This document shows, piece by piece, positions 37,962 to 62,507 of a stretch of DNA of 64,000 bases (positions are counted from its first letter, which is position 1; each line of letters opens with the position of its first letter). The notes under the pieces are model-generated. The model had not been told where the DNA came from. It did no database searches and saw nothing but the letters and a program-made list of their open reading frames with translations. Location of the stretch: NCBI GenBank assembly GCA_903859155.1, contig CAIOLO010000100.1, positions 1-64,000 on the forward strand. The letters are read 5' to 3'. The DNA comes from an uncultured beta proteobacterium (GTDB taxonomy: Bacteria > Pseudomonadota > Gammaproteobacteria > Burkholderiales > SG8-39). The position numbers were made by a program, and so were the translations under genes.

Positions 37962-39280
37962 ATTTCGAGCAGGTCCTGCTGCACGCTGCCGATACGCAGG
38001 CGCCGAACTCCGAGCGCCGGATCGATTGCCACCCCGCCTTCGACCACGGCAAGCGCGAGCACCTGCAGGCCGGCGCGCCGCAACGACAGCAGCAACTCAT
38101 GCCGCGCCTCGTCCCAGCCGGCCAGCACCAGGATGCAGCCGGCCAGGCCGCCGCCGCGCTCCAGGATCGCGGATTCCAGCCGGGTGAGCGCATCCTTCCC
38201 GGCCATGCGCACCCCGGCCAGCACCTCGAGCAGGTGCTCGGTGCGCAGCAGTCCGCGCCCGGCTGTATATACATGCGTCTGCTCGCCGACAAACAGCATG
38301 TCGAGCAGGCACTCCTGGGTATCCAGCGTGTAGACAAAGGAAGCCGCCACCGACACCGCCTCCTCGAAGGCCTGCTCACCCGCCTCGGTGAAGGCGGTAT
38401 CGAGCGCCAGCGCGTGGCGCTCGAAATATTCGCTGTGGAATTCCTTTACGATGGGCTTGCCGGTGCGGGCAAAACTCTTCCAGTGAATGCGCTGCAGCGC
38501 GTCGCCGGGCCGGTAGTCGCGCAGTCCGAAAAATTCCTCCGAATCCCCCGACGAGGCCGCCTGGGCGACGCCACCTGGCTGGTAACGACGCTGCCCGGGG
38601 AGCGTGACGGGCGGCAGGCGGTAGCGGCGCGGCAGCACCAGCACCGATTGCGGCGCGCTGGCGCGAAAAAAAGCGCGGCACAGCCGCAGCGGATCGGTGC
38701 GCGCGATGCTGACAGCGGAAAACCGCACCACGCCGCGCCGGCGCGCGGTCATGCGCATGTTCACTGTCGTCTCCGCTCCGGGGGGCACCGCGGCCATCTC
38801 GCGCGGTTCCACAGAGCCGTTGCGGCGCTCGGCCAGCAGCCAGGTCCACAGGTAAAACCCCATGGCGGTGTCCAGCCGGTTGCGCCTGACACCCGGTTCG
38901 CGTGCCCGGATGAACTCCTCGCGGCTGGGGAGCGTGTAATCCAGATCCTCGAACAGTGTCAGGCCGCGCTCCTCGCCGCGGTTGAGATTGCGCACCTGCA
39001 AACGGTACTCGAGCGGCTCGCCGGCCGTGGCAAAGCGCGGCAGGTCGCGCCTCACCGCAAAGCGGCTGCGATACAGCAACGAGGCGGCAACCGCCAGAAG
39101 CAGCAGCGAGACCAGATAGGTGAAGCCGCGATAGGCCGTGGTCTGCTCGGTGTCGACGCCGAATATCCCGAATGCAATCATCGCCGCCATGAGCATGCGG
39201 CCGACGCCGGTGAAGCGGCGTTCGTACCATTGCGAAAACCGGGAGAAACGCCGGAAGGAGTAGTAAAAAAGCGTGCGCAT
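37958..39280 (-). CDS. DUF58 domain protein
   Basis: A 440-aa protein with two N-terminal membrane helices (residues about 25-65) and a C-terminal DUF58 domain recognised by FFGLRDYRPGDALQRIHWKSFARTG at about residue 270-294, where the family motif R-x-Y-x-x-G-D-x-x-R-x-I-x-W appears. DUF58 proteins have a VWA-like fold and pair with MoxR ATPases. ATG at 39280 follows the MoxR stop by 19 nt; the in-frame extension upstream lies in moxR and is not used. Confidence 0.87.
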   Translation of the reverse strand: MRTLFYYSFRRFSRFSQWYERRFTGVGRMLMAAMIAFGIFGVDTEQTTAYRGFTYLVSLLLLAVAASLLYRSRFAVRRDLPRFATAGEPLEYRLQVRNLNRGEERGLTLFEDLDYTLPSREEFIRAREPGVRRNRLDTAMGFYLWTWLLAERRNGSVEPREMAAVPPGAETTVNMRMTARRRGVVRFSAVSIARTDPLRLCRAFFRASAPQSVLVLPRRYRLPPVTLPGQRRYQPGGVAQAASSGDSEEFFGLRDYRPGDALQRIHWKSFARTGKPIVKEFHSEYFERHALALDTAFTEAGEQAFEEAVSVAASFVYTLDTQECLLDMLFVGEQTHVYTAGRGLLRTEHLLEVLAGVRMAGKDALTRLESAILERGGGLAGCILVLAGWDEARHELLLSLRRAGLQVLALAVVEGGVAIDPALGVRRLRIGSVQQDLLEI

Positions 39281-39299
39281 GGCCGCCGAGCGTTCCCGC

Positions 39300-40244
39300 C
39301 TAGGCCGGCACCGGCAGTTTCTCGAGCAACTCTTCGACCAGCTTGCGCCCTGTAGCACCGGAGAACTTCGCCTGCGGATCAATAACCAGCCGGTGGGCAA
39401 TGACCGCCACCGCCATCTCGCGCACATGTTCCGGGTGAACAAACGCCGCATCGTCGAACAGGGCCAGCGCCTGCGCGGTGCGCGTCAGCGCGATCGAAGC
39501 GCGCGGCCCGGCACCCAGGGACACCCCGGCCGCGCTGCGCGTCGCGCGCACCAGCTCGACCGCATAGGCGCGCACTTCGGCCGATACGCGCACACTCCCG
39601 ACCGCCGCGCGCAGCGCGGCGATGTCCGCCGGGCTCACGCAGGCCGCAAGCGCGGCCAGCGGATGCACCAGTTCCTGCGAGGCCACCACCTCGGCTTCGG
39701 TCTGCGCGTCCACATAACCCAGGGAAAGGCACACCGCGAAGCGGTCCATCTGCGCTTCCGGCAGCGGGTAGGTGCCGCGAAACTCCACCGGATTCTGCGT
39801 CGCGATGACAAAGAAATCGTCGAGCTTCCAGGTCCTGCCTTCAATCGACACCTGGCCCTCGGCCATCACCTCGAGCAGCGCCGACTGGGTGCGCGGCGAA
39901 GCGCGGTTGATCTCATCGGCCAGCAGGATGTGGGTGAATATCGGCCCCTGGTGAAACTCGAAACTCTGGTCGCGCGGGTTGTAGACCGAGACGCCGAGAA
40001 TGTCCGAGGGCAGCAAATCGGGCGTGAACTGCACCCTCTTGAAATTCGCGCCGCCCGACACCGCGAGTGCCTTGGCGAGCGTGGTCTTGCCGGTCCCGGG
40101 CAGGTCCTCGAGCAGCACGTGCCCCCCCGATGCATAGGCGGCGAGCAGCCGCCGCAACACCCCTGCCTGCCCGCGAATCACGCGGCCGATATTGGCGTGG
40201 ATGGCCTCAAAAGTGCTTTTCGGTGAATTCAATGGTGCGTTCAA
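39300..40244 (-). CDS. MoxR-type AAA+ ATPase
   Basis: A 314-aa AAA+ protein. Walker A is GTGKTT (context LEDLPGTGKTTLA), Walker B ILLADEINRASP, sensor 1 ATQNPVEFRGTYPLPEAQMDRF. These are the hallmarks of the MoxR family, which remodels or matures partner proteins, here presumably the DUF58 and transglutaminase products. The start is read as TTG at 40244 with GGAG upstream; an internal start is also possible since the first 12 residues are unconserved. Confidence 0.88.
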   Translation of the reverse strand: MNAPLNSPKSTFEAIHANIGRVIRGQAGVLRRLLAAYASGGHVLLEDLPGTGKTTLAKALAVSGGANFKRVQFTPDLLPSDILGVSVYNPRDQSFEFHQGPIFTHILLADEINRASPRTQSALLEVMAEGQVSIEGRTWKLDDFFVIATQNPVEFRGTYPLPEAQMDRFAVCLSLGYVDAQTEAEVVASQELVHPLAALAACVSPADIAALRAAVGSVRVSAEVRAYAVELVRATRSAAGVSLGAGPRASIALTRTAQALALFDDAAFVHPEHVREMAVAVIAHRLVIDPQAKFSGATGRKLVEELLEKLPVPA

Positions 40245-40346
40245 TGGTGCGGCTCCGATTCAAATGCCGGCGATTACGCAGGCTTCCATGTTACGCAAGG
40301 CGCCGCGCGCAGATGCTCATAGACCGCATCTCCACCGCGACACCTG

Positions 40347-41051
40347 TCACCCGCGCGGCGTGCACTTCGCCTGGAAATTCTCCAGGCGAAAGTACTCCTC
40401 CGGCGTATCCACCAACGCCTGGCGCCTGGCCGATTCGGCCGCGCCGCGCTCAAGATAGGGTTGCAAAATGGCCGCGGCGCGCTGCCGGATGCTGGTCTCG
40501 CCGGCCTCGGCGCTGTCGAAATACTGAATCCGATCGCCCAGTTGCTCGCGCAGCTCGTCGCGCACCTCCAGCGCCATCTGGTCCAGATATTTCTGGTAGA
40601 CGCTGATGTGCTTTTTTTCGTGGTCCATGGTGATGTCGAATTCGCAGCTGCCGGCCGGATGCTCGCGGGCGACGTAGAGCGTGGTGGGCTTGAAGGCGAG
40701 CGTGAGCTTGAGCGAAGGCCGCATGCAATAACGGCCCGAGAGCGGCTTGACGATGCCCGGGGCGGTAAATTCGACCGCCCCGGTGAGCTTTGTCTCCACC
40801 AGGCCCAGTACCATGCGGCCCGCGGTGGCCGCACCGCCGGCCCCCAGTTGCTCGATGGAACGGCTGAAGTCCGGCTGGACCTCGATGTCTTCGGCGACGA
40901 CTTCCACTTTGGCAGACGGCAGCCGCTTCTCGCAGACGCCCTCGAACGCACTGATGTAATCACAACTGCCCAGCGGCAGGGCCAGCGCGACAATGATCGA
41001 GCGCGAAAGAATATTGCGGTACCGGGATAGAGCGTGCATAGCACCGATCAT
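40347..41051 (-). CDS. Putative lipoprotein with HExxH motif (metalloprotease-like)
   Basis: A 234-aa protein with an N-terminal signal (RSIIVALALPLGSC) whose Cys after LGS is a lipobox candidate, so it is probably membrane anchored. A mid-domain pattern MDHEKKHISVYQ contains HEKKH, which fits a zincin HExxH site, and the flanking VAREHPAGSCEF and EVRDELREQLG are helical. I do not recognise a curated family beyond resemblance to DUF922-like proteins. It is upstream of moxR on the same strand, 102 nt away, so a role in the same envelope module is possible. Confidence 0.6.
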   Translation of the reverse strand: MIGAMHALSRYRNILSRSIIVALALPLGSCDYISAFEGVCEKRLPSAKVEVVAEDIEVQPDFSRSIEQLGAGGAATAGRMVLGLVETKLTGAVEFTAPGIVKPLSGRYCMRPSLKLTLAFKPTTLYVAREHPAGSCEFDITMDHEKKHISVYQKYLDQMALEVRDELREQLGDRIQYFDSAEAGETSIRQRAAAILQPYLERGAAESARRQALVDTPEEYFRLENFQAKCTPRG

Positions 41052-41075
41052 AGAGGGAATTACCCCGGCCTGTCC

Positions 41076-41864
41076 TCAGGGCAACCGCTTCACGCTGACC
41101 TGACAACCCCACAGCTTGGTCATGACGGGCATGACATCGAGCGTGGCGCCGCTGGTCCAGAAGCGCTCGGTTCCGGGTGCGTCGCCCGCGCGCAGCAGGC
41201 CCGCCGATTCCAGGCGGCGGCGCAATTCGCGCGCCACGGCATGCGCCGGGTCGATCACCGCAACATCCGGTCCCGCCGCGGCACGAATGACACTCAGCAG
41301 AAACGGGTAATGGGTACACCCCAGAACGATGGTGTCGGCCCCTTGCGCGAGCAGCGGCTCGAGGTAAGCCGCAACCATGGCCTGCGTGGCAGCACCATGC
41401 AGATCGCCTTTTTCCACCTGCTCCACCAGTCCCGGGCAGGCCTGCGCCAGGATGCGCACCCCCTGGCCGTGCCTCTCGGCCAGGCGCGAAAAGTTCTCAC
41501 TGGCCAGCGTCTGGCTGGTGGCCAGGATGCCGATGACCCCGGAGCGCGACTGTGCGGCGGCGGGCTTGACGGCCGGTTCAATGGCAATCATCGGCACCGC
41601 ATAGCGCGAGCGCAGCGATTGAATCGCCACCGCGGTCGCGGTATTGCACGCCACCACGATGGCCTTGATCTGCTGGCCGAGAAAAAACTCCACGATGGCC
41701 TGCGCGCGCTCGAGAATGAATTGCGCAGGCCGCTCGCCGTAGGGTGCCGCGCCGGAATCGGCGACATAGAGCAGATGCTCGGCAGGCAGGGCGGTGCGCA
41801 CCTCGCGCAGCACGGAAAGCCCGCCGACCCCGGAATCGAATACGCCTACGCCGGCATCAGCCAT
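41076..41864 (-). CDS. murI: Glutamate racemase
   Basis: MurI makes D-glutamate for peptidoglycan. The 262-aa protein shows VFDSGVGGLSVLREV at the N-terminus, the first catalytic Cys in VACNTATAVA and the second in LGCTHYPFLL. ATG at 41864 is chosen because the conserved region begins immediately after it; an in-frame TTG twelve codons earlier is possible. It stands alone between the lipoprotein gene and the UbiD gene, all on the minus strand. Confidence 0.92.
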   Translation of the reverse strand: MADAGVGVFDSGVGGLSVLREVRTALPAEHLLYVADSGAAPYGERPAQFILERAQAIVEFFLGQQIKAIVVACNTATAVAIQSLRSRYAVPMIAIEPAVKPAAAQSRSGVIGILATSQTLASENFSRLAERHGQGVRILAQACPGLVEQVEKGDLHGAATQAMVAAYLEPLLAQGADTIVLGCTHYPFLLSVIRAAAGPDVAVIDPAHAVARELRRRLESAGLLRAGDAPGTERFWTSGATLDVMPVMTKLWGCQVSVKRLP

Positions 41865-42036
41865 TGACACAAGCGGGCCTTTGTCATTTTGGTTCGCCAA
41901 TGCAGCAGTCTATCAGAGTAAAAAGTTTAACTTATTTTAGACATTGACAAGCATTGGCGTGCCATTTAAGCCATTTCAAAATCAGATTTGACAACCGTGG
42001 TGAGCCTGCTGCATGCCACTGACGCCCCGGAATGGA

Positions 42037-43563
42037 TCAGGTCAGGCACCACAGTCCGTCGGGCGTGCGGTCGACGGCGCGCTGTTCGCGCATCACATCC
42101 AGCTCCAGGGTCAGCGCGCGGCCATCGGTGGTGCCGGCAGCCTCCATGAGCTGGTAGAAGTGCTTCGGGCCGGAGGCCAGCGCTTCCCGCAACGATTGCC
42201 TGGTTGCCGCGGGTTTGAGCTTCGGCGCAAAGGAGAGCAGGCTTTCGATTTTCGGCGCGGCATTGAAGGGCGCGGTGAAGTCGTAGCCCACTTTGGCCAT
42301 CTTGCCCTCGGCGTCGTTGGTGGGGTCCATGGTCAGCGCAAAATGCCCGCCCTCGACCATGATGTCGCGGTCGGCGCGAAAGCGCGTGCATTGCGCCCAA
42401 TCCATGGCCTCGCCGGAGTGCACGTCGACGTCCGGATCGACGACGGTGATCACCCGCATCAGCGGCATCTTGAACAAGGCCGCGATCGCGCGGCGCGCAT
42501 CGCCGGCCGCTTTCTGTTTCAGCGCGACCTTGCACACATGCGCGCCGGTGGCACTCTCGGGGCAATACACGTCGGTGATATCCAGCCCCTCCTGCTTGAG
42601 GATCTGCCACACCCGCGCCTCGGAGCCAAGGCCCGCAACCAGGGAGGCGTCATTGCGCCGGATTTCCGGCCCGCCGTGCAAGACCGTGTGGTGGAGCATG
42701 TCGCTGCGTCGCGTGATGGCGGTGACGTGGAACACCGGGTCCATGTGCATCGGGCCGTAATACCCATAGAGCTCGCCGTACGGACCTTCTTTTTCGGCGT
42801 AACCCAGTTCGTCCAGGTAGCCCTCCAGCACCATTTCCGCATCGGCCGGCACCGGAATGTTGTTGGTGATGCCACGCACCATGGGCAGGGTCTCGCCGCG
42901 CAGCGCGGCCACCAGCGCGAATTCGTCAGTCGGTATCCTGATGGAGGCGGACATGAAATCCAGCGGGTGCGCACCGATCACGAAACTCACGGGGAGCCGT
43001 TCCTTCCTTGCCACGGCGGCAAGATAGATGCGCTTCAGGTCAGACAGCTGCGTGATGTTGCAGCGCAACTCCTTTTTGCTTCGCAACATCAGGCGGCGAC
43101 AGCCGACATTGGGTTTGCCGTCGGCAGGATCGACGGTGTAGTCCATGGCCGCGGAGATATAGGGCGCGCCATCGAGCTGATGCTGCAGGTAGAACGGCAG
43201 CTGGGTGAGGTCGATGTCATCGCCCTTCAACACCACCTGATGCACCGGGGCTTCGGCGGAGGCGACTTCGGCAACTTTCTGCGGGGTCTGCAGGCGGCGC
43301 ATGAACTCGGGCAGCACTTTCTTCGGGTCATCCAGCCCGAAAGCCGCCGCCAGGCGGCGGCGGTTGCCGATGAAACCGGCGAAGATCTCGTAGTGCTGCG
43401 GTCCGGCATTCTTGAACAGCACCGCCTTGGGGGAGTTCTCGATGAGAGCAGTGAGATCGGTCATCGCCAGCGCTTGGTCGTGCACCTCGAGCTCGCCGAT
43501 GCGCGCGAGCTGGTCCATGAAAGTGCGCAGGCGGAATTTGTTGTAATCGAAGCTGGTGCTCAT
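42037..43563 (-). CDS. UbiD family decarboxylase
   Basis: A 508-aa UbiD/Fdc-type protein, which uses prenylated FMN made by a UbiX partner (not in this window) for reversible decarboxylation of aromatic or alkenyl acids. The conserved acidic motif reads EKEGPYGELYGYYG, with the Glu of GPYGE in the position of a catalytic Glu of Fdc1. The C-terminal region has VVDPDVDVHSGEAMDWA, the family DxDDV-like loop. ATG at 43563 precedes a recognisable N-terminus (STSFDYNKFRLRTFMDQ). It lies 90 nt downstream of a CocE hydrolase gene, suggesting that an ester or amide is cut and the acid is decarboxylated. Confidence 0.87.
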   Translation of the reverse strand: MSTSFDYNKFRLRTFMDQLARIGELEVHDQALAMTDLTALIENSPKAVLFKNAGPQHYEIFAGFIGNRRRLAAAFGLDDPKKVLPEFMRRLQTPQKVAEVASAEAPVHQVVLKGDDIDLTQLPFYLQHQLDGAPYISAAMDYTVDPADGKPNVGCRRLMLRSKKELRCNITQLSDLKRIYLAAVARKERLPVSFVIGAHPLDFMSASIRIPTDEFALVAALRGETLPMVRGITNNIPVPADAEMVLEGYLDELGYAEKEGPYGELYGYYGPMHMDPVFHVTAITRRSDMLHHTVLHGGPEIRRNDASLVAGLGSEARVWQILKQEGLDITDVYCPESATGAHVCKVALKQKAAGDARRAIAALFKMPLMRVITVVDPDVDVHSGEAMDWAQCTRFRADRDIMVEGGHFALTMDPTNDAEGKMAKVGYDFTAPFNAAPKIESLLSFAPKLKPAATRQSLREALASGPKHFYQLMEAAGTTDGRALTLELDVMREQRAVDRTPDGLWCLT

Positions 43564-43653
43564 GCGTGCCTTTTTTTCTGTCTGATGAATGAATTTGCCG
43601 GTGCCGAGTACTTGTCGCGCCGGCGCATCCACGCCTTGGCATGGATTGTACGT

Positions 43654-45387
43654 TCAGCCTTTTGCCAGGGGCGGAAGTTTGCCTCCTGAAATAAAGCTGC
43701 CGATGCGGTTGCCGCGGGTGACCGGCAACAGCAGATGCGATGGATGCGCGGCATCGTGATGCACGCTCACGTGCGAGGCGCGCGGGCGCGTGATCGAACC
43801 CTGCGCCAGCCGGTGCAGGAACACCTCGGTGGGATCGTCGTCGGCGCAGCGTACGCGCACCGCCAGGCGCTCCCCGGGATGCAACAGGATGCCATAGGGC
43901 CGCAGTTCAATGTCGAACTCGTAGATCTCATCGGGGGTGAGCGGTTCGCGCGCCACGTGCGTGTGCACCGGCTGCCAGGGTCTGGAGCGCTCCGTGTCCA
44001 GGGCACGCTGCGAGCCGCGCAGCCAGCCGCGCGTGAGCAGCACCTCGCGCCCGGATGTATCGATATGCCACAGGCTCACGAACCACAGCACCTCGTTATC
44101 GGTGGTGGAACCGTACAGTTTCAGCGCGATCGGACCGCAGATCTCGGTGGCCTCCACCATGGCCGGCGTCGCAAAACGCGCACCGCCATGGCTGAAGGGA
44201 GAATCCTCGAATGTGGTGGCGCCCTCGTTGGGCCAGAATTCGTGCTCCGAGAGCAGGCCGCCCGCGTGCAGGTAGAAAGGCGTCCAGCGCGTACCGGGAA
44301 TCGGCCATTCCTGCGCGGACTTCCATTCGTTGGCGCCGACGATGAACACGTTCACCGGCGCCTCGTCCATCATCCCGGTGTCGTTGTCCTTCAGCCAGTG
44401 GTCGAACCAGCGCAGCGACTCGTAGTCGTACTGGTACAGCGGACGGTCCAGATAGATGGGCGGTCCGATGGTGAGCTTGCGCGGGCCGCGCCACTGATCG
44501 TAGGCACGCATGTCCCCGGCCAGATGCAGGCCGAAATTGCCCCAGTCGGCGCCGAAATAGCCGGGGATGGCATCGCTCTTGGAAAAATCCACGGCACCCG
44601 CGGCGTGGTAGTCGTCGTACAGCGGGTGCAGCAGGAATTCGACGATCAGCGGGTTCACACCCGCTTCCGGATTGCGAAGTGCCTGGCTGAGCGCCGGCAC
44701 CGAGGTCAGTTCCTGGTCGGCGAGCAGGCGCTTGACCGCGTCGCCATAGGCCGCGGCGCCCATTGCTTCGCGCGCCCGGTTGCCGAACTTGAATGGCCCG
44801 GCATAACCCTGCAGCCAGTAAGTGGTGAAGCCGTGGGCAAGTATGCCGCCGCGGTAGTAGGCGTCGCGGTAGCCGTCGCTCCACCCGTACATCGCAAAAA
44901 TGGCCTTCAAGCTGGGCGGGCGCAGCACCGCGGCGCGCTTTTGCACCACTGAAAAATAGGAAACGCCGTTCATGGCCACGCGACCGCTGCTCCAGGGCCG
45001 CGCCGCCAGCCACTCGATGGTGTCGGCGATGTCCTGGATGGAATCATGGTCCGGGTTGAGATTGCCGAAATCCCCTCCCGCTCCCCAGGTGCCGCGCATG
45101 TTGGCGATCACGAAAACGTAGCCACGGCGCACGTAGAAATTGAAATCACCCACTTCGAGCAGGCCGCGATTGAACTGATTGCCCGGAAAGCCCTGCGGCA
45201 CCATCTCCATGCCCTGCTCCACCCGGTTGTAGGGGCTCATGGTGAGCAGCACCGGGAACTTGCCCGGCGCGTCGGGGCGGAAAATGTCGGCGACGATGCT
45301 GATGCCATTGCCCACCGGCACGCGCACGTCACGCTCGATGGTGACGCCGTATTGACGGGGAGAGGTGCGCCATTTCTGGGAAATCAT
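43654..45387 (-). CDS. CocE/NonD family hydrolase
   Basis: A 577-aa alpha/beta hydrolase of the CocE/X-Pro dipeptidyl-peptidase S15 type. The catalytic Ser lies in AMNGVSYFSVVQ, the N-terminal sheet contains VGNGISIVADIFRP and the C-terminal jelly-roll domain contains LRPYGILLHPGERLAVRV. Such enzymes cleave esters, cocaine-like alkaloids or proline peptides. AGGAG stands 6 nt before the ATG at 45387, and an in-frame start six codons upstream is less likely. No signal peptide is seen. It is first of the pair with UbiD and divergent from the GMC gene. Confidence 0.85.
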   Translation of the reverse strand: MISQKWRTSPRQYGVTIERDVRVPVGNGISIVADIFRPDAPGKFPVLLTMSPYNRVEQGMEMVPQGFPGNQFNRGLLEVGDFNFYVRRGYVFVIANMRGTWGAGGDFGNLNPDHDSIQDIADTIEWLAARPWSSGRVAMNGVSYFSVVQKRAAVLRPPSLKAIFAMYGWSDGYRDAYYRGGILAHGFTTYWLQGYAGPFKFGNRAREAMGAAAYGDAVKRLLADQELTSVPALSQALRNPEAGVNPLIVEFLLHPLYDDYHAAGAVDFSKSDAIPGYFGADWGNFGLHLAGDMRAYDQWRGPRKLTIGPPIYLDRPLYQYDYESLRWFDHWLKDNDTGMMDEAPVNVFIVGANEWKSAQEWPIPGTRWTPFYLHAGGLLSEHEFWPNEGATTFEDSPFSHGGARFATPAMVEATEICGPIALKLYGSTTDNEVLWFVSLWHIDTSGREVLLTRGWLRGSQRALDTERSRPWQPVHTHVAREPLTPDEIYEFDIELRPYGILLHPGERLAVRVRCADDDPTEVFLHRLAQGSITRPRASHVSVHHDAAHPSHLLLPVTRGNRIGSFISGGKLPPLAKG

Positions 45388-45524
45388 GGAAAGCTCCTGG
45401 ATCAAAAAAAATGCATCCGGCCTGGGGCCGGATTTGCAAAGAAGTGATGATGCGGCAGCGTGCGCGCGGACGCAATAGCCGGAATCCGCCGGCGATGTGA
45501 CAATGCCGGCTGGGAGGATGCTCA

Positions 45525-47141
45525 GTGGCCACAGAAGAGTTCGATTACATCATCGTCGGCGCGGGTTCCGCGGGCTGTGTGCTCGCCTGCCGCCTGACGG
45601 AAGACCCGGGCGTCAGCGTACTTTTGCTCGAAGCCGGCGGTCGCGACAGCGATCCGTTGATCCACATACCGCTCGGTGTGGGCAAGATGTGGCAGGAGCG
45701 CCGCCACGACTGGGGCTACGACACCGAACCCGAGCCCATGCTGAATGATCGCAAAATCGAGATGATGCGCGGCAAGGTGCTGGGCGGGTCGTCGTCGATC
45801 AACGCCCTCGCGCACATCCGCGGCAACCCGGGCGACTACGATCGCTGGTCAAGGAACGGCCTGCCCGACTGGGGATACAAGAACTGCCTGCCTTATTTCA
45901 AACGCACCGAATCCTGGCAGGGCGGCGCGAGCGAACATCGCGGCCACTCGGGGCCGATCACGGTGCGCTACACCAACAACGAGGATCCGATTGTCGATGC
46001 GTTCCTCGACGCGGCGCGCAGCGCCGGCTTTCCTATTACACAGGACATCAGCGGCCCGGATCCGGAAGGTTTCGGACTGGCGCAATCGACCATTCGCAAT
46101 GGCCGGCGCTGCAGTTCCGCAGTGGCCTATCTGCGCCCGGCCCTGCGGCGCCGCGGACTCACGCTGCGCATGCACGTCCATGCCACGCGCATCCTCATCG
46201 AGGGCAGGCGCGCCAGCGGCATCGAGTATCTGGAGAACGGACAGACAAAACAGGCGCGCGCCGCCCGCGAAGTGCTGCTCGCAGGCGGCGCCATCAACTC
46301 GCCGCAACTCTTGATGCTCTCGGGCATCGGCGATCCCGAAGCGCTGTTGAAGCAGGGCATCCGCCCTCAGGCCGCCCTGCGCGGCGTCGGCACCAACCTG
46401 CAGGATCACTTGTCGGTTGGCGTCACCTGCTGGCGCAAGGGCGTGAGCCCGCTGCAGCACATGCTGCGCATGGACCGCATCGCGATTGCCATGCTGCAGG
46501 CCTGGCTAACCGGCACCGGCCCGGCCACGCTGCTGCCCGGAGGCGTCACCGCGCCCGTCAAAAGCCGCGCCGACCTCGACGTGCCGGACATCCAGTTCCT
46601 GTTCCGCGGCGCCGCCGTCGATGCAAGGCCCTGGTGGCCGTTCAAAGGCCCCGACTGGCGCGACGCCATCATGTTGCGACCGGTGCTGCTGCATCCTGAG
46701 AGCCGCGGCGCCCTGACGCTCGCCTCCCCCGACCCGCTAGCCCACCCGCGCATACAAGCCAACTTTCTTGACGCCGAGTCAGACCGAAACACGCTGATCA
46801 CCGGCGTGCGCATCGCCCGCGACGTCCTCAGCCAATCCACCATGAAAGCCTACTGCGGCGAAGAAGCCTCCCCCGGCCCCCAACGCCAGAGCGACGAAGA
46901 AATCCTCGCCTACATCCGCGCCACCGCCCTCACCGCCCATCACCCCATGGGAACGTGCCGCATGGGAGCGGATGACATGGCGGTGGTGGATTCCGAATTG
47001 CGGGTACGCGGGGTGGAAAAGCTGCGCGTGATCGACGCATCGGTGATGCCGGATCTGGTGTGCGGGAATATCAATGCCTGCGTGTTGATGATTGCGGAGC
47101 GGGGGGCGGATTTTGTGCGAAGCAACCGGCTAACCAGCTGA
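45525..47141 (+). CDS. GMC family FAD-dependent alcohol oxidoreductase
   Basis: A 538-aa GMC oxidoreductase. The FAD-binding motif is YIIVGAGSAGCVLACRL at the N-terminus. GMC signatures are GKVLGGSSSINALAHIRG and GAINSPQLLMLSGIG, and the active-site His-Asn pair is in HPMGTCRMG and GNINACVLM near the C-terminus. It probably oxidises an alcohol, feeding electrons to a quinone or dye-like acceptor. The start is GTG at 45525 with GGGAGG 7 nt before. It is divergent from the CocE-UbiD operon and might act in the same pathway. Confidence 0.9.
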   Translation: MATEEFDYIIVGAGSAGCVLACRLTEDPGVSVLLLEAGGRDSDPLIHIPLGVGKMWQERRHDWGYDTEPEPMLNDRKIEMMRGKVLGGSSSINALAHIRGNPGDYDRWSRNGLPDWGYKNCLPYFKRTESWQGGASEHRGHSGPITVRYTNNEDPIVDAFLDAARSAGFPITQDISGPDPEGFGLAQSTIRNGRRCSSAVAYLRPALRRRGLTLRMHVHATRILIEGRRASGIEYLENGQTKQARAAREVLLAGGAINSPQLLMLSGIGDPEALLKQGIRPQAALRGVGTNLQDHLSVGVTCWRKGVSPLQHMLRMDRIAIAMLQAWLTGTGPATLLPGGVTAPVKSRADLDVPDIQFLFRGAAVDARPWWPFKGPDWRDAIMLRPVLLHPESRGALTLASPDPLAHPRIQANFLDAESDRNTLITGVRIARDVLSQSTMKAYCGEEASPGPQRQSDEEILAYIRATALTAHHPMGTCRMGADDMAVVDSELRVRGVEKLRVIDASVMPDLVCGNINACVLMIAERGADFVRSNRLTS

Positions 47142-47697: not shown

Positions 47698-47705
47698 GCG
47701 GGTGC

Positions 47706-47945
47706 CGACATCATGCCGTTTGACGCCACAACTCCTCGCAGCCGTCTTCCCTGACCGCGACGAGCGCCGACGCGTAGGCCGTTTGTCCGCCCTCGGTGGC
47801 GCTGCTGGTCACGGCATAAACTGCACCGGCAAGGAGGAGAGCGCCCGGCCCTTCATCGAGCGAGAGTCCGATCGCGTTCGCCACGACGCCCTGCGGCAGA
47901 TGCGCCCCGCGCAGCGGCGAGGGCGGCGGCCAGGGCGGCGCTGCG
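47706..47945 (-). repeat. Duplicated block A, copy 1 (with C-terminal coding remnant)
   Basis: This block recurs at 49038-49270 in the same orientation with high identity. On the minus strand both copies encode nearly the same protein C-terminus (LPQGVVANAIGLSLDEGPG ... QTAYASALVAVRE) followed by a stop, at 47711 in this copy. I do not recognise the protein. The upstream part differs between copies, so both are fragments of a duplicated gene. Confidence 0.75.
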
Positions 47946-48973: not shown

Positions 48974-49037
48974 AACCGGCGACCGATTCCAGCGCCAGTC
49001 CTGGGCCATCGTCCCCCGGGTTCAGCGGAGGCGCCCC

Positions 49038-49270
49038 GACATCACACCTTTTGACGCCACAACTCGTCGCAGCCGCCTTCCCTGACCGCAACGAGCGCCG
49101 ACGCATAGGCCGTTTGTCCGCCCTCGGTGGCGCTGCTGGTCAGGGCATAAACTGCACCGGCAAGTAGGAGAGCTCCCGGCCCTTCGTCCAGCGACAACCC
49201 GATCGCGTTCGCCACGACGCCCTGCGGCAGATGCGCCCCGCCCCGCGCAGCGGCCAGGGCGGCGGCCAGG
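49038..49270 (-). repeat. Duplicated block A, copy 2 (with C-terminal coding remnant)
   Basis: Second copy of block A. On the minus strand it ends in the same C-terminus, with a stop at 49042. The minus frame can be extended to 49392 over the leucine-rich-repeat remnant, but that part has no counterpart in copy 1. Block A copies lie outermost and block B copies inside, with hicBA at the centre. Confidence 0.75.
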
Positions 49271-50941: not shown

Positions 50942-50969
50942 ACAGGTTCGACTCCTGTCGGGAGCACCA
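50942..50969 (+). other. tRNA 3'-end remnant (possible integration site)
   Basis: A T-arm (ACAGG-TTCGACT-CCTGT) followed by CGGGAGCACCA, that is an acceptor strand with CCA. No matching 5' half with the complementary acceptor or a D arm is present within 150 nt upstream, so this is not a whole tRNA. Such partial tRNA ends mark att sites of integrative elements. The rest of 50651-51091 shows no gene. Confidence 0.55.
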
Positions 50970-51091
50970 CTATCAAAGTGGCATGACCAACGTCCAGAAG
51001 TGCCCAGTTTTGGTCTGGTCGGGGATCCGCGAAGGGCTCGAACCTGCAAATTGTGAAGCCCAGTAATTGCCACCGAACGAACGCTCGACGG

Positions 51092-51240
51092 GACCGATAA
51101 GAAAATCAATCGGCACGTACGACGCGTGGGCGGATGGAATGCTCTGCCATCTTGTGATTCGGGGTTTCAAAATCGCGCACATTATTGATTCTGTTCAAAT
51201 CCTGTGTTTGCCGATGCCCGTTCCCGGGTTTGCTGGGTAA
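51092..51240 (+). repeat. 149-bp dispersed repeat, copy 1
   Basis: Near-identical (2 differences in 149) to 54649-54797 in the same orientation. It begins GACCGATAAGAAAATC and ends CCCGGGTTTGCTGGGTAA. The right edge abuts the truncated tctC directly. A diverged copy precedes the tctC gene at 59854-60001. A short stem CCCGG/CTGGG near the end could form. Confidence 0.9.
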
Positions 51241-51692
51241 GCCGCGCGGGTATCGACATGGTGCATGTCCCCTTCAAAGGAAACGCCCAGGCGCAGGCGG
51301 ATCTGGTGGCCGGTCAGGTGCAGGTGATGCTGGAGGGGCCGTCGATCATGCCATACATCAAGAGCGGCAAGGTCAGGGCGCTGGCGACGACCGGCCGCGT
51401 GCGCACCAAATCGCTGCCCGACCTGCCCACGGTCATCGAGGCCGGCCTGCCGGGGTTCGACATCGCCACCTGGTTCGGGCTGTCCGCGCCCGCCGGCGTT
51501 CCCCGCCCGATCATCGACAAGCTCAATCGCGAGGTGGGCGAATATCTGCGCGCGCCGGCAACCCAGGCCAGGTTCGCCGCGGCTGGGTTCGAGTTTCTGC
51601 CGGGCACGCCGGAGGAAATGAGCGAGCGCATACGCACGGAAATCCCGCTCTCGGCAAAGGTCATGCGATCGGTGGGCATGGAGCCGGAGTAG
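51241..51692 (+). pseudogene. tctC-like receptor gene, C-terminal half only
   Basis: The frame keeps only the last 150 or so residues of a Bug/TctC protein (AGIDMVHVPFKGNAQAQADL, IKSGKVRALATTG, SLPDLPTVIEAGLPGFDIA, then GTPEEMSERIRTEIP). Intact family members are about 320 residues with a signal peptide. The loss begins exactly at the edge of the 149-bp repeat. The first in-frame codons lie in the repeat and are not tctC. Confidence 0.85.
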
Positions 51693-54648: not shown

Positions 54649-54797
54649 GACCGATAAGAAAATCAATCGGCACGTACGACGCGTGGGCGGATGGAATGCT
54701 CTGCCATCTTGTGATTCGGGGTTTCAAAATCGCGCACATTATCGATTATGTTCAAATCCTGTGTTTGCCGATGCCCGTTCCCGGGTTTGCTGGGTAA
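54649..54797 (+). repeat. 149-bp dispersed repeat, copy 2
   Basis: Same length and orientation as copy 1 at 51092-51240. Its right edge at 54797 coincides with the point where the transposase reading frame (minus) loses its own sequence. Its left side abuts the tctC fragment region. The two copies bracket 51241-54648. Confidence 0.9.
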
Positions 54798-55971
54798 ATT
54801 GATCGCGCGTGAGCCGCTGGCGCTGCAAGGCCTGGAGCCGATCGACGTAGCGGCGTAGGCGTTTGCGGCGCATGCCGTACTCCTTGTCGATGCGCGCATC
54901 GCTTTGCGCGAGCACGTAGATGTCCTCCTCGGTAACCAATCGCTTTACCTTGACGCCCTCGCGCACGCGCGCCCACGGCTCACCGAGGAAGGCCTGCTCA
55001 AGCCGGGACAGTCTGCCCTTGGGCGTGCCGACCAGGTAAGAGGCGCCCATGCGGCGCATCTTGGCCAGACTGTCCTCGGTAGGAATGCCCCGGTCCATCA
55101 CCCAGATGCGGTTGGTCCGCCCGTAACGCTGCTCGATGCGATCGAGGAAATCGCTCAACGTCGTGGAATCGGCGGTGTTGCCCGCGAGCACCTCGTAGCT
55201 CAGCGGGAAACCCTCGGGGGTGACAATCAACGCGATCACGACTTGGCTGCAGTCGCCTCGCTTGTCGCGGCTGTAGCCGTACTGGCGCAGATCCTCGGGG
55301 CTGCGTTCAATGTCGGTCTCAAAGCAGGTGCTGGTCAGGTCGTAGAGCAGCACGTCGAACTTCGCACCGAACAGTTCTCCCCAGCGCCGGGTGAGAAACT
55401 TAAACAGCTCGTCCTTGTGCCGGGCGAGCCGATCCAGGCAGAGGTACAGGGTGTTCTTCTCAGCCAGTGCGAAATCGGCATTGAGTAGATCGGCCATCGC
55501 ACTGGAATCAAACCACTGTCGATGTAACCGCCACTCCGAGCCCGGGTCGATGAGTCGGTACGCCACCAACGTGCACAGAGCCTTCAGCCACGGCGTGCCT
55601 TCGCGTGAGGGCGCAAGCCGTGGCCGCCAGAAGTCCTTCAGATCGAGTTCCTGCCACAGTTGCATGGCCAACCAGCAAGCTCCCCATTGTCGCGGGCGCT
55701 CGATGCGCAACTCGCTCAGACGCACACCGATCGCATCGACATCGTCCGCCGGCATCGAGCCCGCCGGGAACAGGGCTACTTGGCGAGGCGAGCCTTCGCC
55801 GTGGACCTCGATGGTCTTGCGCCAATCCTCGCGCTGGCTGGAGTTGATCTCGCCCAGGTACAGCACTTGGCGCTGCACAACGCGCCCGTCGCTCAGGCGC
55901 CGATTCTCGACAACGCTCCAATAATCGTGAGCCTTGCCGTCCTTGACGCGTCGGTTGCAGCACAGAAACAT
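54798..55971 (-). mobile_element. IS4/IS1634-type transposase, C-terminally truncated
   Basis: From ATG at 55971, 391 codons belong to a DDE transposase of the IS1634 group of the IS4 superfamily, with catalytic Asp211 in VLLYDLTSTCFE and Asp293 in IWVMDRGIPTED. Full members are over 500 residues, with the third acidic residue further on. Here the coding frame runs into the 149-bp repeat, where it continues for 19 codons of foreign sequence to 54739. Terminal inverted repeats could not be found, so the element looks immobile. The 277-nt region after its start (55972-56248) shows no gene. Confidence 0.85.
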
Positions 55972-58276: not shown

Positions 58277-58443
58277 CAGCAGCTGGGATTGTCGAATTTA
58301 GAGACCAATAGCGAGAGAGCCTTGGGGCCGCGACTAAGTTGCGGTTTCAGCACAAACCTCGCCGCAAAGGCATGCGGATCCCTTTTTCAAGTGACCTAAA
58401 ACTCCAACCCGATATTAAGCGAGTGCACGCAAGGAAATACGGC

Positions 58444-59847
58444 ATGAACAATGAAGTCTGCTTCTTGCCGGCAACTGAATTGGCGCGGCGCATCCGGCGC
58501 AAGGATCTGTCGGCGCGCGAGCTGATGCAGGCGTCGCTGGCGCAGATCGCGCGTCTCAACCCCGGGCTCAATGCGATCGTCAGCCTGTACGCCGAGCAGG
58601 CGCAGGCCGCGGACGAAAAGCAGGTACGGGGCGAAACGCTCGGCGCCCTGCACGGCCTGCCGGTCGCGCACAAGGATCTGTTCCTGACCCGGGGCATGCG
58701 CACCACCTTTGGCTCGCCCATTTTCAAGGACTTCGTTCCCGATCAGAACCTGCTGATGGTGGACCGGCTGCAGGCCGCGGGGGCGATTTCCATAGGCAAG
58801 ACCAATACGCCCGAGTTCGGCGCCGGCTCGCAGACCTTCAATGCCGTGTTCGGCAAGACGCTCAACCCCTACGACACCGGCAAGACCTGCGGCGGCTCCT
58901 CCGGCGGTGCGGCGGTGGCGCTGGCGGCCGGCATGGTGCCCCTGGCCGACGGCAGCGACATGGGCGGCTCACTGCGCTGTCCGGCCAATTTCTGCAACAT
59001 TGTCGGCCTGCGCACTTCACCCGGACGCGTACCGATCTGGCCGGCGAAGTCCGGCTGGAGCACGCTCGGGGTGCAAGGGCCGATGGCGCGCACTGTGGAA
59101 GATTGCGCGCTGATGTTAAGCGTGATCGCCGGCCGGGATGCGCGGAGCCCGATTGCGATCGCGGAACCGGGCAGCCAGTTCGCGCGGCCGCTCGCGCGCG
59201 ATTTCAAGGGCGTGCGCATTGCCTGGAGCGCCGACCTCGGCGGATTGCCCGTGGATGCGCGCGTCGCCGCGGTGCTGGCCTCGCAGCGCCCGACCTTTGC
59301 CGCGCTCGGTTGCGCGCTTGAGGAGGCCACGCCCGATCTGTCCGACGCAAACGAGATCTTCATGACCCTGCGCGCCTGGCAGTTCGACCTTGCCTACGGC
59401 GAGCTGCTCGATCACCGTCGCGGCCAGCTCAAAGACACGGTGATCTGGAACATCGAGGCGGGCAGGAAGCTGTCCGGACCAAGCATCGGTGCCGCAGAGT
59501 TAAAGCGCACTGCGCTGTACGAGCGCGTGCGCGGCTTCATGCAGCGCTACGAGTTCCTGATCCTGCCGGTGAACCAGGTGCCGCCGTTCAACGTCGATGA
59601 GCCCTATGTCACCGGGATCAACGGCGTGGCCATGGACAATTACATCGACTGGATGAAATCCTGTTACTTCATCACTGTTACCGGCCATCCGGCAATCTCG
59701 GTGCCCTGCGGCTTCACCGCAGAAGGACTGCCGGTGGGGGTGCAGATCGTCGGACGGCATCAGGACGATTTCGGCGTGCTGCAATTGGCGTATGCGTTCG
59801 AGCAGGCGACGCAGCTATGGCAGCGGCGCCCGGCGATCGCAAACTGA
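58444..59847 (+). CDS. Amidase signature family amidase
   Basis: A 467-aa amidase. The Ser-cisSer-Lys triad is visible: Lys77 in VAHKDLFLT, Ser152 in GGSSGGAAVA and Ser176 in GSDMGGSLRCP. It hydrolyses amides to carboxylic acids and ammonia; with nearby Bug receptors it probably serves catabolism. ATG at 58444 has AAGGA upstream and starts right before the conserved ELARRIRRKDLSAREL; an in-frame ATG at 58339 is less likely. The repeat/leader element follows 6 nt after the stop. Confidence 0.88.
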   Translation: MNNEVCFLPATELARRIRRKDLSARELMQASLAQIARLNPGLNAIVSLYAEQAQAADEKQVRGETLGALHGLPVAHKDLFLTRGMRTTFGSPIFKDFVPDQNLLMVDRLQAAGAISIGKTNTPEFGAGSQTFNAVFGKTLNPYDTGKTCGGSSGGAAVALAAGMVPLADGSDMGGSLRCPANFCNIVGLRTSPGRVPIWPAKSGWSTLGVQGPMARTVEDCALMLSVIAGRDARSPIAIAEPGSQFARPLARDFKGVRIAWSADLGGLPVDARVAAVLASQRPTFAALGCALEEATPDLSDANEIFMTLRAWQFDLAYGELLDHRRGQLKDTVIWNIEAGRKLSGPSIGAAELKRTALYERVRGFMQRYEFLILPVNQVPPFNVDEPYVTGINGVAMDNYIDWMKSCYFITVTGHPAISVPCGFTAEGLPVGVQIVGRHQDDFGVLQLAYAFEQATQLWQRRPAIAN

Positions 59848-59853
59848 AAAACT

Positions 59854-60011
59854 GATAGGCAAATAAAACCGGTACGGGTGGCCGGTGGACTGATGGTACT
59901 CTCCGACTCTTGGTGATTCGGGGCTTGAAAATCACGTACCACGCGCATTATGATGATAATGCCCGGGGCTTGACGAGACCAATCCCGGGTTTACCGGGTA
60001 AAGCTGGTCTC
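59854..60011 (+). promoter_or_regulatory. Diverged copy of the dispersed repeat; candidate structured leader of tctC
   Basis: About 150 nt similar to the 149-bp repeats (shared GTGATTCGGGG, AAAATC, CCCGGGTTT and GGGTAA blocks). It can form hairpins: GCATTAT/ATAATGC (59945-59962), inner CCCGG/CCGGG (59984-59998) and an outer 7-bp stem GAGACCA/TGGTCTC (59975-60011). The stems in copies 1 and 2 keep pairing through G-T changes. No T-run follows. It lies 64-222 nt before the tctC start, so a cis-acting RNA or a DNA-level element are both possible. Confidence 0.45.
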
Positions 60012-60074: not shown

Positions 60075-61031
60075 ATGTTAGCCGCACGTTTACTTGCATT
60101 CGCATTCATTGCCCCCGCCATAGGCATCGCGCAAACACCGGCTTATCCGAGCAAGACCATTCGAATGGTCACTGCAGGGCCTGGCGCCAGCATGGATCTT
60201 GTGGCGCGCGTGGTGGCCGAGGGCCTGACAACGAGTTTGGGCCAATCGGTGGTCGTCGAAAACAGGGATGGGGCCGGTGGCATCATCGCGGGCGACATGG
60301 TGGCCAAATCAGCGCCCGATGGCTATACCTTGCTGACCTATACGTCGGCCCTGGTTATTCTGCCGTTCCTGCGAAAGAATGTTCCGTTCGATCCGGTGAA
60401 AGATCTTTCGCCCATCACGCTTGCAACAAGGTCGCCAAACGTCGTTGTCGTGCACCCTTCGGTGCCGGCGAATTCCATTCAGGAACTGGTCGCTCTGGCG
60501 AAGGCCAAGCCGCGCACGCTCAACTACTCCTCTGCAGGCACTGGATCGTCCACCCATCTTTCGGCGGAACTGCTCAAATCCATGGCAGAGATAGATCTGG
60601 TTCACATCCTCTACAAGAGCACCGCGCCGGCCCTGAACGACCTGGTCAGCGGTCAGGTTCAGGTCAGCGTGCCTTCCGCAAGCACCGTGATGCCGCATGT
60701 CAAGGCGGGCAGGCTGAAGGCGTTGGCCGTCACCTCTGCGCAGCCATCGCAACTGGCCCCCGGCTTGCCCACCGTGGCGGCCGCCGGGGTGCCTGGCTAT
60801 GAATCGGAATTGATGGTGGGCCTCTGGGCGCCCGGAAAAACCCCCGCGGCCCTGATCAACCGGCTGAATCGTGAAATCGTGCAGGTTCTCAACCAGCCCG
60901 CAGCCAAAGGCCGGTTGTTGACCGGAGCCGAGATCGTCGGAAGCTCGCCGGAGCAATTTGCGCAAGTGATCGATCGCGAACGCGCAAGATTGGGCAAAGT
61001 AATCACGGAAGCCGGCATCAGTGCGGAATAA
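60075..61031 (+). CDS. TctC/Bug family tripartite tricarboxylate transporter receptor
   Basis: A 318-aa periplasmic binding protein. It has a signal peptide (LAARLLAFAFIAPAIGIAQ) and family motifs IRMVTAGPGASMDLVARVVA, VVVENRDGAGGIIAGDMVAKS, LNYSSAGTGSSTHLSAELL, and LPTVAAAGVPGYESELMVG. It starts the cluster tctC-ubiD-DUF4286-TIGR04076 with 27 nt to the next gene, so its ligand is probably the acid decarboxylated downstream. GGGGAAA precedes the ATG at 60075; an earlier ATG in frame lies in the hairpin region. Confidence 0.9.
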   Translation: MLAARLLAFAFIAPAIGIAQTPAYPSKTIRMVTAGPGASMDLVARVVAEGLTTSLGQSVVVENRDGAGGIIAGDMVAKSAPDGYTLLTYTSALVILPFLRKNVPFDPVKDLSPITLATRSPNVVVVHPSVPANSIQELVALAKAKPRTLNYSSAGTGSSTHLSAELLKSMAEIDLVHILYKSTAPALNDLVSGQVQVSVPSASTVMPHVKAGRLKALAVTSAQPSQLAPGLPTVAAAGVPGYESELMVGLWAPGKTPAALINRLNREIVQVLNQPAAKGRLLTGAEIVGSSPEQFAQVIDRERARLGKVITEAGISAE

Positions 61032-61058: not shown

Positions 61059-62507
61059 ATGTTGGACGACCTGAGGGAGTTCATAGAAAAATCCCAAGCC
61101 ATCGGTGAATGCAAGACTCTGAATGGCGCCCACTGGGATCTGGAGATCGGGCGAATAGCGGAGTTATCGCTGTCTGTTCCCGATTCACCGCTTCTGATAT
61201 TCGACAATATTCCCGGGTATCCGAGGGGCTTTCGCGTCCTCACCAATTTTCTGACCTCCTGGCGACGGGTTGCCATGGGCCTTGGCTTGCCCATGGACCT
61301 CACCGGGCTCGCCCTGATCAGAGCGTGGAAAGAGAAAGTGGCTGCGGTCAAACCGATTCCGCCGGTTTATGTGCAGACGGCTCCCGTAAAGGAAAACATT
61401 ATTCTCGGTGACGATGTCGATGTCCTGATGTTTCCCACTCCGAAATGGCACGAGTTCGACGGGGGCCGCTATATCGGCACGGGAAACATGGTCATCCTGA
61501 AAGATCCGGATAGCGGCTGGATAAACCTGGGTTGTTATCGATCGCAGATCGTGGACAGGAACACCGTGACCGTTCACTTCGTATCCAGCCACCATGGCGC
61601 GGCCATTGTGAGGAAGTACTGGGATCGGGGTCTGAGCTGTCCGGTTGCGATGACTTGCGGACAAGGTGCTCAACTTTGGATTTCTTCCATGTCCCCGGTG
61701 CCTGCCGGAATCTGTGAGTACGACTGGACAGGAGGATTGAGAAACCGGGCGGTAGAGGTGGTTCGCGGCGAAACTGTCGATCTGCCGATTCCCGCCGAAG
61801 CGGAGATCGTCCTGGAAGGGGAGATACCGCCGCCCGAAACACAGAGCGCCGACGAGGGGCCGTTTGGCGAATGGGAGGGTTATTACGCGGGTGGCAAAAC
61901 GCCGCACCCCGTAATAAGAGTCAAAGCCATCCTGCACCGAAACGACCCGATTCAGATCGGGGTGCCCATGCTGGTCGGCAAGTATGACGATCATCTGGTG
62001 TGGGGCGTAGACCTGTCCGCTCAGCTCTGGGCTGAGTTCGACCGCCAGATTCCCGGGGTGACCGGTGTCTCGTTCGTCTACGAAGCCAGACGGCGGACGA
62101 TGGTAGTGGTCTCGCTCAAGCAGGCGTACCCTGGCCATGTGAAGCAAGCCGCGCTGATCGCGGCGGGCACCTACCGGGGTGCCACCAACCTTGGCAAGTA
62201 CATCATCATCGTCGATGACGATATCGATCCGACCAACATGTCCGAAGTCCTGTGGGCCATCGCCACGCGTTGCGATCCGAAGCAGCAGATCGAATTCCTG
62301 TCGAATCGCGCATCTTATGCCTCCGATCCGAGACTGAGCCCTGAGCAAAGGAAAAGCGGCGACCTGACCTGCTCCACCGCCATCATCGACGCGTGCAAAC
62401 CCTGGGCCTGGCGAAATCAATTTCCCAAAACAACCAAGATGTCGACCGAAGTCGCGGACGAGGTCAGACGCAAGTGGGGAGATCTCCTTTTCGGCGGAAA
62501 TCGGTAG
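61059..62507 (+). CDS. UbiD family decarboxylase
   Basis: A 482-aa UbiD-type decarboxylase. The catalytic acidic motif is DEGPFGEWEGYYAGG (about residue 264), the prFMN-binding region VNL-GCYRSQIVD is recognisable, and the loop IIIVDDDIDPTNMSEVLWA closes the fold. Substrates of this type are aromatic or heteroaromatic acids. No UbiX (prFMN synthase) is in the window. It differs strongly from the UbiD at 42037. Position just after a Bug receptor suggests import followed by decarboxylation. The next start lies 81 nt downstream. Confidence 0.9.
   Translation: MLDDLREFIEKSQAIGECKTLNGAHWDLEIGRIAELSLSVPDSPLLIFDNIPGYPRGFRVLTNFLTSWRRVAMGLGLPMDLTGLALIRAWKEKVAAVKPIPPVYVQTAPVKENIILGDDVDVLMFPTPKWHEFDGGRYIGTGNMVILKDPDSGWINLGCYRSQIVDRNTVTVHFVSSHHGAAIVRKYWDRGLSCPVAMTCGQGAQLWISSMSPVPAGICEYDWTGGLRNRAVEVVRGETVDLPIPAEAEIVLEGEIPPPETQSADEGPFGEWEGYYAGGKTPHPVIRVKAILHRNDPIQIGVPMLVGKYDDHLVWGVDLSAQLWAEFDRQIPGVTGVSFVYEARRRTMVVVSLKQAYPGHVKQAALIAAGTYRGATNLGKYIIIVDDDIDPTNMSEVLWAIATRCDPKQQIEFLSNRASYASDPRLSPEQRKSGDLTCSTAIIDACKPWAWRNQFPKTTKMSTEVADEVRRKWGDLLFGGNR

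Follow-up and report, generated by a model that had tools for sequence, protein, structure and literature searches.

The DNA between an amidase gene and an intact tctC gene in a 64,000-nucleotide window, the whole stretch analysed here (positions 1 to 64,000 of contig CAIOLO010000100.1 from an uncultured beta proteobacterium), contains a complete, diverged copy, termed R3, of a ~148-bp non-coding repeat. With moderate confidence, we interpret R3 as an old copy of a mobile repeat that is non-autonomous, confined to one lineage and equipped with a predicted promoter. Promoter-carrying mobile repeats can rewire gene expression, and in the well-described cases the element has inverted repeats and a parent transposon. 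The ~148-bp family lacks these customary hallmarks, having neither inverted repeats nor target duplication, neither a palindrome nor an adjacent transposase, and still keeps exact ends across related species, swaps halves between copies, clusters in co-oriented groups and hosts a group II intron. Its mover, once found, would tell how such unmarked repeats spread.

A complete third copy and its repeat family

Searched with a 63-row profile HMM built from other genomes, without any sequence from the window's own, the window yielded R3 (151 bases) as an end-to-end match (profile positions 1-150, E=6.7e-23) together with two further complete copies, R1 and R2 (Table 1), and no other match at E below 0.01 in its 64 kb. 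The third, diverged copy recognized in the first-pass annotation is thus borne out. Its limits, given there as 59854-60011, required correction, as the last ten bases fall outside the repeat, which ends with ..CCGGGTAA at 60001. R1 and R2 are direct repeats of 99% identity; the direct-repeat search did not list R3, yet R3 aligns over its full length with both. The amidase stop codon lies 3 bp before the start of R3, and the intact tctC does follow the annotated end (60011) by 64 nt, with 73 nt separating the corrected end from the tctC ATG.

Table 1. Repeat copies, candidate elements within R3 and adjoining genes in the 64-kb window.
Feature	Position	Strand	Evidence and remarks
R1, complete copy, followed by tctC without its 5' part	51092/51093..51240	+	nhmmer E=1.6e-34
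tctC without 5' part, behind R1	51258-51689		PF03401 positions 134-269 of 274
R2, complete copy, overlapping the end of a transposase ORF	54649/54650..54797	+	nhmmer E=7.9e-37
Transposase ORF overlapped by R2	54742-55971		DDE_Tnp_1
Amidase gene	58339..59847	+	ORF; PF01425 1-445 of 445; start codon uncertain
R3, complete diverged copy, between amidase gene and tctC	59851..60001	+	nhmmer, cmsearch
Promoter-like site at the conserved core of R3, toward tctC	59925..59954	+	TTGAAA-18-TATGAT; 10/12 consensus matches; putative function
Terminal hairpin near the right end of R3	59984..59998	+	CCCGG-GTTTA-CCGGG; arms 59984-59988, 59994-59998
Intact tctC, 3' of R3	60075..61031	+	318 aa; PF03401 1-273 of 274
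ubiD-family decarboxylase gene, after tctC	61059..62507	+	PF01977, PF20695, PF20696

Two other features of the window were observed. Positions 50947-50970, shortly before R1, resemble by eye the 3' part of a tRNA (GGTTCGACTCC..GGGAGCACCA), and ARAGORN reported no tRNA in the 64-kb window. A second direct-repeat pair, of 212 nt and 92% identity, lies at 47705-47916 and 49036-49247.

A model of 28 diverse copies matched at least 122 sites on 84 contigs of five genomes (at least 70 in G001, 29 in G002, 17 in G000, five in G030 and one in G117), mostly within one genus. In the window's own genome, at least seven matches were obtained with R1 as query and at least three with R3, and a same-genus genome contained at least 40 (40 of 58 candidates scored). 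DNA matches were found in 3 of 61 relatives, and a sequence-only model of 33 copies gave matches in at least six of 98 genomes at family level, one of them weak. Among the candidates scored in a 300-genome sample of the order, two genomes presented a match at E≤1e-5, the window's own and one with a 3' half. The candidates scored per genome were capped in these searches, at 31 for the 98 genomes, 150 for the 122 sites and 10 for the 300-genome sample, so that the counts are lower bounds and the absences provisional. Scanning a large genome collection for an exact pattern returned eight contigs, all from a single metagenome-assembled genome. Viral contigs contained no match to one exact pattern, plasmids no match to the repeat and phages three 28-bp matches only (E 0.04). 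A segment of 98.5-99% identity (L070, L072, L119, L047) is common to genomes of three genera (G001, G030, G117), reflecting either recent transfer or misbinned contigs. We found no description of a ~148-bp repeat family in the literature searched, judged by titles and the starts of abstracts in a corpus that mostly excludes subscription journals.

Folding of the repeat and its position relative to tctC

The first-pass annotation had proposed that R3 is a structured RNA acting as a cis-regulator of Bug receptor (tctC) genes, with pairing kept through compensatory changes. The two hairpins on which the proposal drew, GCATTAT/ATAATGC (59945-59951 with 59956-59962) and CCCGG/CCGGG, are both in the R3 sequence. 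The 7-bp outer stem GAGACCA/TGGTCTC is not a feature of the repeat: its 3' arm (60005-60011) lies beyond the repeat end, and the stem therefore cannot be a family feature. Across the family, the terminal CCCGG/CCGGG hairpin is the only helix that is widespread, with 95.2% of cells paired in alignment A4 (33 copies) and 87.0% in alignment A5 (28 diverse copies).

R3 folds modestly better than its shuffles (z -1.71 to -2.58) and adjoins an intact tctC, which speaks for a leader RNA. The family does not follow: eight other copies folded singly, R1 and R2 among them, gave z values of -0.59 to 1.25, and over 57 full-length copies (140-165 nt) the mean was -0.06 on the forward and 0.06 on the reverse strand, with values below -2 in two and four copies, respectively, R3 (-2.15) being one of the two. 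RNAalifold on 33 copies returned 12 consensus pairs at -6.97 kcal/mol, and Rfam gave no match at gathering scores in the window. When the three helices of R3 were imposed on 28 diverse copies, 69.1% of cells were paired, against 68.0% in shuffled alignments (95 of 500 shuffles reached the observed value), and covariation was 0.146 against 0.135 (100 of 500); the compensatory changes are thus not borne out, and the covariation check suggested in the annotation reveals nothing above shuffles on the diverse alignment. The result least against an RNA is a small excess on A4 (73.3 versus 72.4% of cells paired, 2 of 500; covariation, 7 of 500), an alignment dominated by two sister groups, for which the tool warns that relatedness can yield such values without structure, and in which two of the 7-bp hairpin's pairs are formed by a single row.

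The genes around the copies were considered in the same light. Of 115 genes adjoining copies 41 are tctC, compared with 53 of 308 other genes at the same loci (p=1.1e-4), an enrichment that a regulator of Bug genes would account for; tctC, however, is as common upstream of copies (16/47) as downstream (17/47). Enrichment that is alike on both sides indicates that the repeat favors tctC-rich neighborhoods and is not specifically a tctC leader. In the loci from G000, G001 and G002, chosen as repeat-containing, tctC is very numerous, accounting for 94 of the 423 proteins called at 100 aa or longer (for G001 alone, 57 of 166); large tctC expansions are already described (PMC5994714). Moreover, the nearest orthologs of the ubiD gene beside R3 (78% identity in G087, 73% in G088) are not preceded by an orthologous tctC, the closest nearby TctC being 42% identical, and no repeat copy was present in either genome among the candidates scored. 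With family-wide folding, covariation, Rfam and tctC placement all against it, we regard a structured leader RNA as highly improbable. The case illustrates how folding a single diverged copy may point to an RNA regulator for which the family offers no support.

None of the 57 full-length copies lies inside a called gene, and nine share more than 40 nt with a called ORF; this set, like the identical one used for folding, counts the segment shared by L070, L072 and L119 three times. A 138-bp copy in L044, too short for the full-length set, lies in a broken tctC, where it seems to stand in place of ~40 codons. The downstream gene is co-oriented with the copy in 39 of 52 cases, a set that counts the shared segment three times, or in 32 of 47 with stricter gene calls and with L072 and L119 dropped. 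The 47 copies comprise 16 tandem forward, 6 tandem backward, 16 divergent and 9 convergent arrangements, and the orientation of copies toward the next gene is a weak bias. We found no empty site: the ubiD orthologs keep no tctC leader, and synteny with G002 is one-sided only, with window positions 39273-47119 matching G002 (L108 9-7772) at 83-88% until 12 bp before a G002 repeat copy, and the window sequence differing beyond that junction.

A promoter-like conserved core

A regulatory role of R3 as DNA, in the form of a putative promoter facing tctC, is possible. The conserved core of the repeat resembles a sigma70-type promoter, with a TTGAAA-like and a TATGTT-like box 16-18 nt apart. Using a hand-entered sigma70 weight matrix, and leaving out 4 of 69 full-length copies that have no recognizable core, we obtained a mean score of 8.39 for the forward strand of 65 copies, against 5.98 for the reverse strand, 6.32 for dinucleotide shuffles and 5.31 for the 148-bp regions preceding 206 genes without the element. 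In 44 of the 65 the top-scoring forward site places its -10 box at the core, and scores exceed the 95th percentile of the shuffles in 21 forward and 0 reverse cases; the copies being related, these are not 65 independent cases. R3, the oldest-looking copy in the window, scores 12.4 at its core, the best of the three, and a separate consensus scan of the R3 region found two sites against 0.6 in shuffles. The core of R1 is altered and its best site lies elsewhere, and 12 copies from G002 average 6.94, little above shuffles.

Taken together, the core scores and the consensus site in R3 make a portable promoter for tctC-ubiD the best-supported candidate function of R3. Such a core would fire outward through the 3' end of the repeat; in R3, transcription would begin near 59960, and the tctC-ubiD leader would be ~115 nt long. 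The same mobile or formerly mobile repeat might have no regulatory role, its core being conserved for another reason, such as binding of an enzyme. The evidence on family, ends and clustering all stands without a promoter, and the G of TATGTT is nearly invariant, exceeding what a -10 box requires, which together with the unaltered flanks of the core suggests a protein-binding sequence. The excess of forward scores over shuffles, the reverse strand and native upstream regions runs against this explanation, as does the presence of the best site in the oldest-looking copy, and we consider it the less probable of the two, if a serious possibility. A promoter-bearing mobile repeat, which we prefer, leaves one pattern aside, as a promoter does not explain why neighboring copies share an orientation.

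Promoter-bearing repeats of other kinds provide a comparison. The Correia elements of Neisseria and other MITEs are described as short, multicopy and mainly intergenic, several carrying sigma70-like promoters that can drive neighboring genes (PMC10969869). The ~148-bp repeat is likewise multicopy and mainly intergenic. MITEs, however, have terminal inverted repeats and insertion-derived direct repeats (PMC10969869), and since both of these defining marks are absent here the repeat is not classed as a MITE. Like mobile promoters (named in PMC8049555), the family also combines repetition of a sequence with a promoter-like site at a constant position; what sets it apart is a ~148-bp unit whose ends are fixed, whose halves are exchangeable and which contains an intron target site, the promoter being a predicted one.

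Ends, exchanged halves and clustering of the copies

The ends of the family are fixed, running from A..GATAG to ..CTGGGTAA. Across 51 full-length copies, with L070, L072 and L119 set aside because they represent one near-identical segment in G001, G030 and G117, an A opens 49 of the copies and closes all 51, and the information content of the flanks falls to background immediately beyond the ends; as these copies were selected as full-length, the conservation of their ends is partly by choice. Apart from a few cases per offset, matching flank words of 2-10 bp showed no excess in the 51 copies, so no target-site duplication is apparent, and no target consensus appears around them. Neither are there terminal inverted repeats, the ends of 69 copies matching at 7.9 of 18 positions on average, compared with 7.6 in shuffles. 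The annotation had offered, as its alternative, that the repeat is the end of a mobile element; a mobile element is supported, although as a whole short element and not as the end of a longer one.

Within these limits, conservation is concentrated in blocks at the left end (A..GATAGGNAAATCAA), the core (CGCAC..CCGATTATGTTCAA) and the right end (CCCGGGTTTRCTGGGTAA). The 5' halves, of types A and B, and the 3' halves are swapped between copies: 139 pairs share a 3' half (<12% difference) with 5' halves that differ by more than 30%, and 15 pairs present the reverse. Breakpoints were taken only from the 19 partial copies whose identity to a complete copy is 88% or more, because the ends of older partials are uncertain; by script 8 of the 19 break within 10 bp of the core ATTATG (9 with L071, assigned by eye), against ~2.7 expected, the 10-bp window having been picked after looking. 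By eye, halves are exchanged ~10-15 bp upstream of ATTATG, which does not agree with a single crossover point at that site.

Composites joining a 5' half to an inverted 3' half were observed in two contigs of G000 (contig 29, L164 1117-1366; contig 77, L165 1041-1269) and in G002 (L122 5752-5957); as the composite has matching flanks in both genomes, it predates their split. The minus-strand peptide with a KPRIT core noted in the annotation is present in 7 of 69 copies. The longest stop-free stretches average 45.0 aa on the plus and 44.6 aa on the minus strand, against 37.7 in mononucleotide shuffles. Peptide coding is not supported: frames stay open somewhat longer than in shuffles, but the copies share ancestry and single-base indels separate their 3' variants.

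Copies cluster, and do so in one orientation. With six touching or overlapping pairs set aside, adjacent copies on one contig share a strand in 29 of 32 pairs (binomial p 2.6e-6), and strand is uniform on 17 contigs and mixed on three. In G001, 19 pairs lie within 5 kb of each other, against at most 5.0 expected, and 11 copies have their nearest relative on their own contig (permutations averaged 3.5, with a maximum of 10 in 2000). Replication-strand bias was considered as the source of the shared orientation; GC skew is too weak to judge it by, and where the skew is marked 2 of 7 copies lie on the G-rich strand. Local spread combined with exchange between copies fits both the clusters and the swapped halves; site-specific recombination near the core would fit them too.

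The latter would make the ~148-bp repeats recombination sites of an unrecognized, non-integron cassette system with a central crossover core, in which crossovers at the core insert or excise DNA between co-oriented sites and thereby build arrays of genes separated by sites. Co-oriented neighbors, exchanged halves, the partial copies that break near ATTATG and sharp ends without target duplication are all what such a system would produce. Were it real, co-oriented arrays of tctC, toxin-antitoxin-like and catabolic genes would have been assembled in this lineage, with a group II intron specialized to the repeat site. Several observations make us doubt it, nonetheless. Halves are exchanged upstream of ATTATG and not there, arrays of one genome share no cargo beyond overlapping contig ends, the repeat has neither attC boxes nor an attC-like hairpin, and local hopping with gene conversion would give similar patterns. 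We thus consider a cassette system unlikely. Under the preferred reading of a mobile repeat, copies would spread over short distances through a putative trans-acting enzyme and would survive where they are harmless or lend a promoter.

No enzyme for the movement of the repeat was found among the neighbors and loci examined. Of the 112 Pfam families represented in 111 neighboring proteins, the 25 commonest include no transposase or recombinase, the latter also counting against cassettes. Integrases above the family cut-off occur in G000 (456 bits, contig 115) and G001 (472 bits, contig 178) and in none of 14 control genomes; they are of the integron type, with other repeats adjoining the one in G000, and no copy of the repeat was present on their contigs among the candidates scored, which likewise disfavors cassettes. 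On the G000 contig (L089), intI lies at 8782-9726 (456 bits to TIGR02249), and the repeats between 352 and 6162 are attC-like and unrelated to that of the window. Y1 transposase matches number one in G000, one in G001, two in G002 and none in G030, and the four loci around these genes contain no repeat copy.

Two known systems of intergenic repeats were considered and rejected. REP/REPIN sequences with their RAYT transposases are likewise intergenic, multicopy and non-coding (PMC8266576, PMC3116915, PMC3733652), whereas the ~148-bp repeat is not palindromic and is several times longer; it has no inverted ends or excess folding, and the Y1 genes, present in three of four genomes, have no copies in the four loci examined around them.

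Integron attC sites are diverse, form co-oriented arrays between genes and are targets of group II introns, traits that recur here. The ends of the ~148-bp repeat, A..GATAG and CTGGGTAA, contain no RYYYAAC/GTTRRRY boxes in 51 copies; there is no foldback, as judged by the mean z over 57 copies given above, and no copy near the integron integrases among the candidates scored.

In G000 (contig 11, L074 115-2510), a group II intron with a reverse transcriptase/maturase (PF00078, PF08388; Rfam RF00029, RF02012) interrupts the repeat between its bases 17 and 18. The junctions read ..AGGAAAATCAA|GTGCGAC.. and ..CCCGAC|TTCCACAGG.., and an uninterrupted copy in the same genome reads ..AGGAAAATCAATTCCACAGG... 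The insertion makes the repeat an intron target and an old sequence, and says nothing on how the repeat itself moves. The same 3' junction of the intron is found in G001 (L060 331-409) and, by sequence only, in G002 (L109 near 6757). Two intron relics, in L075 near 6240 and L060 near 2630, keep the 5' exon and the first bases of the intron.
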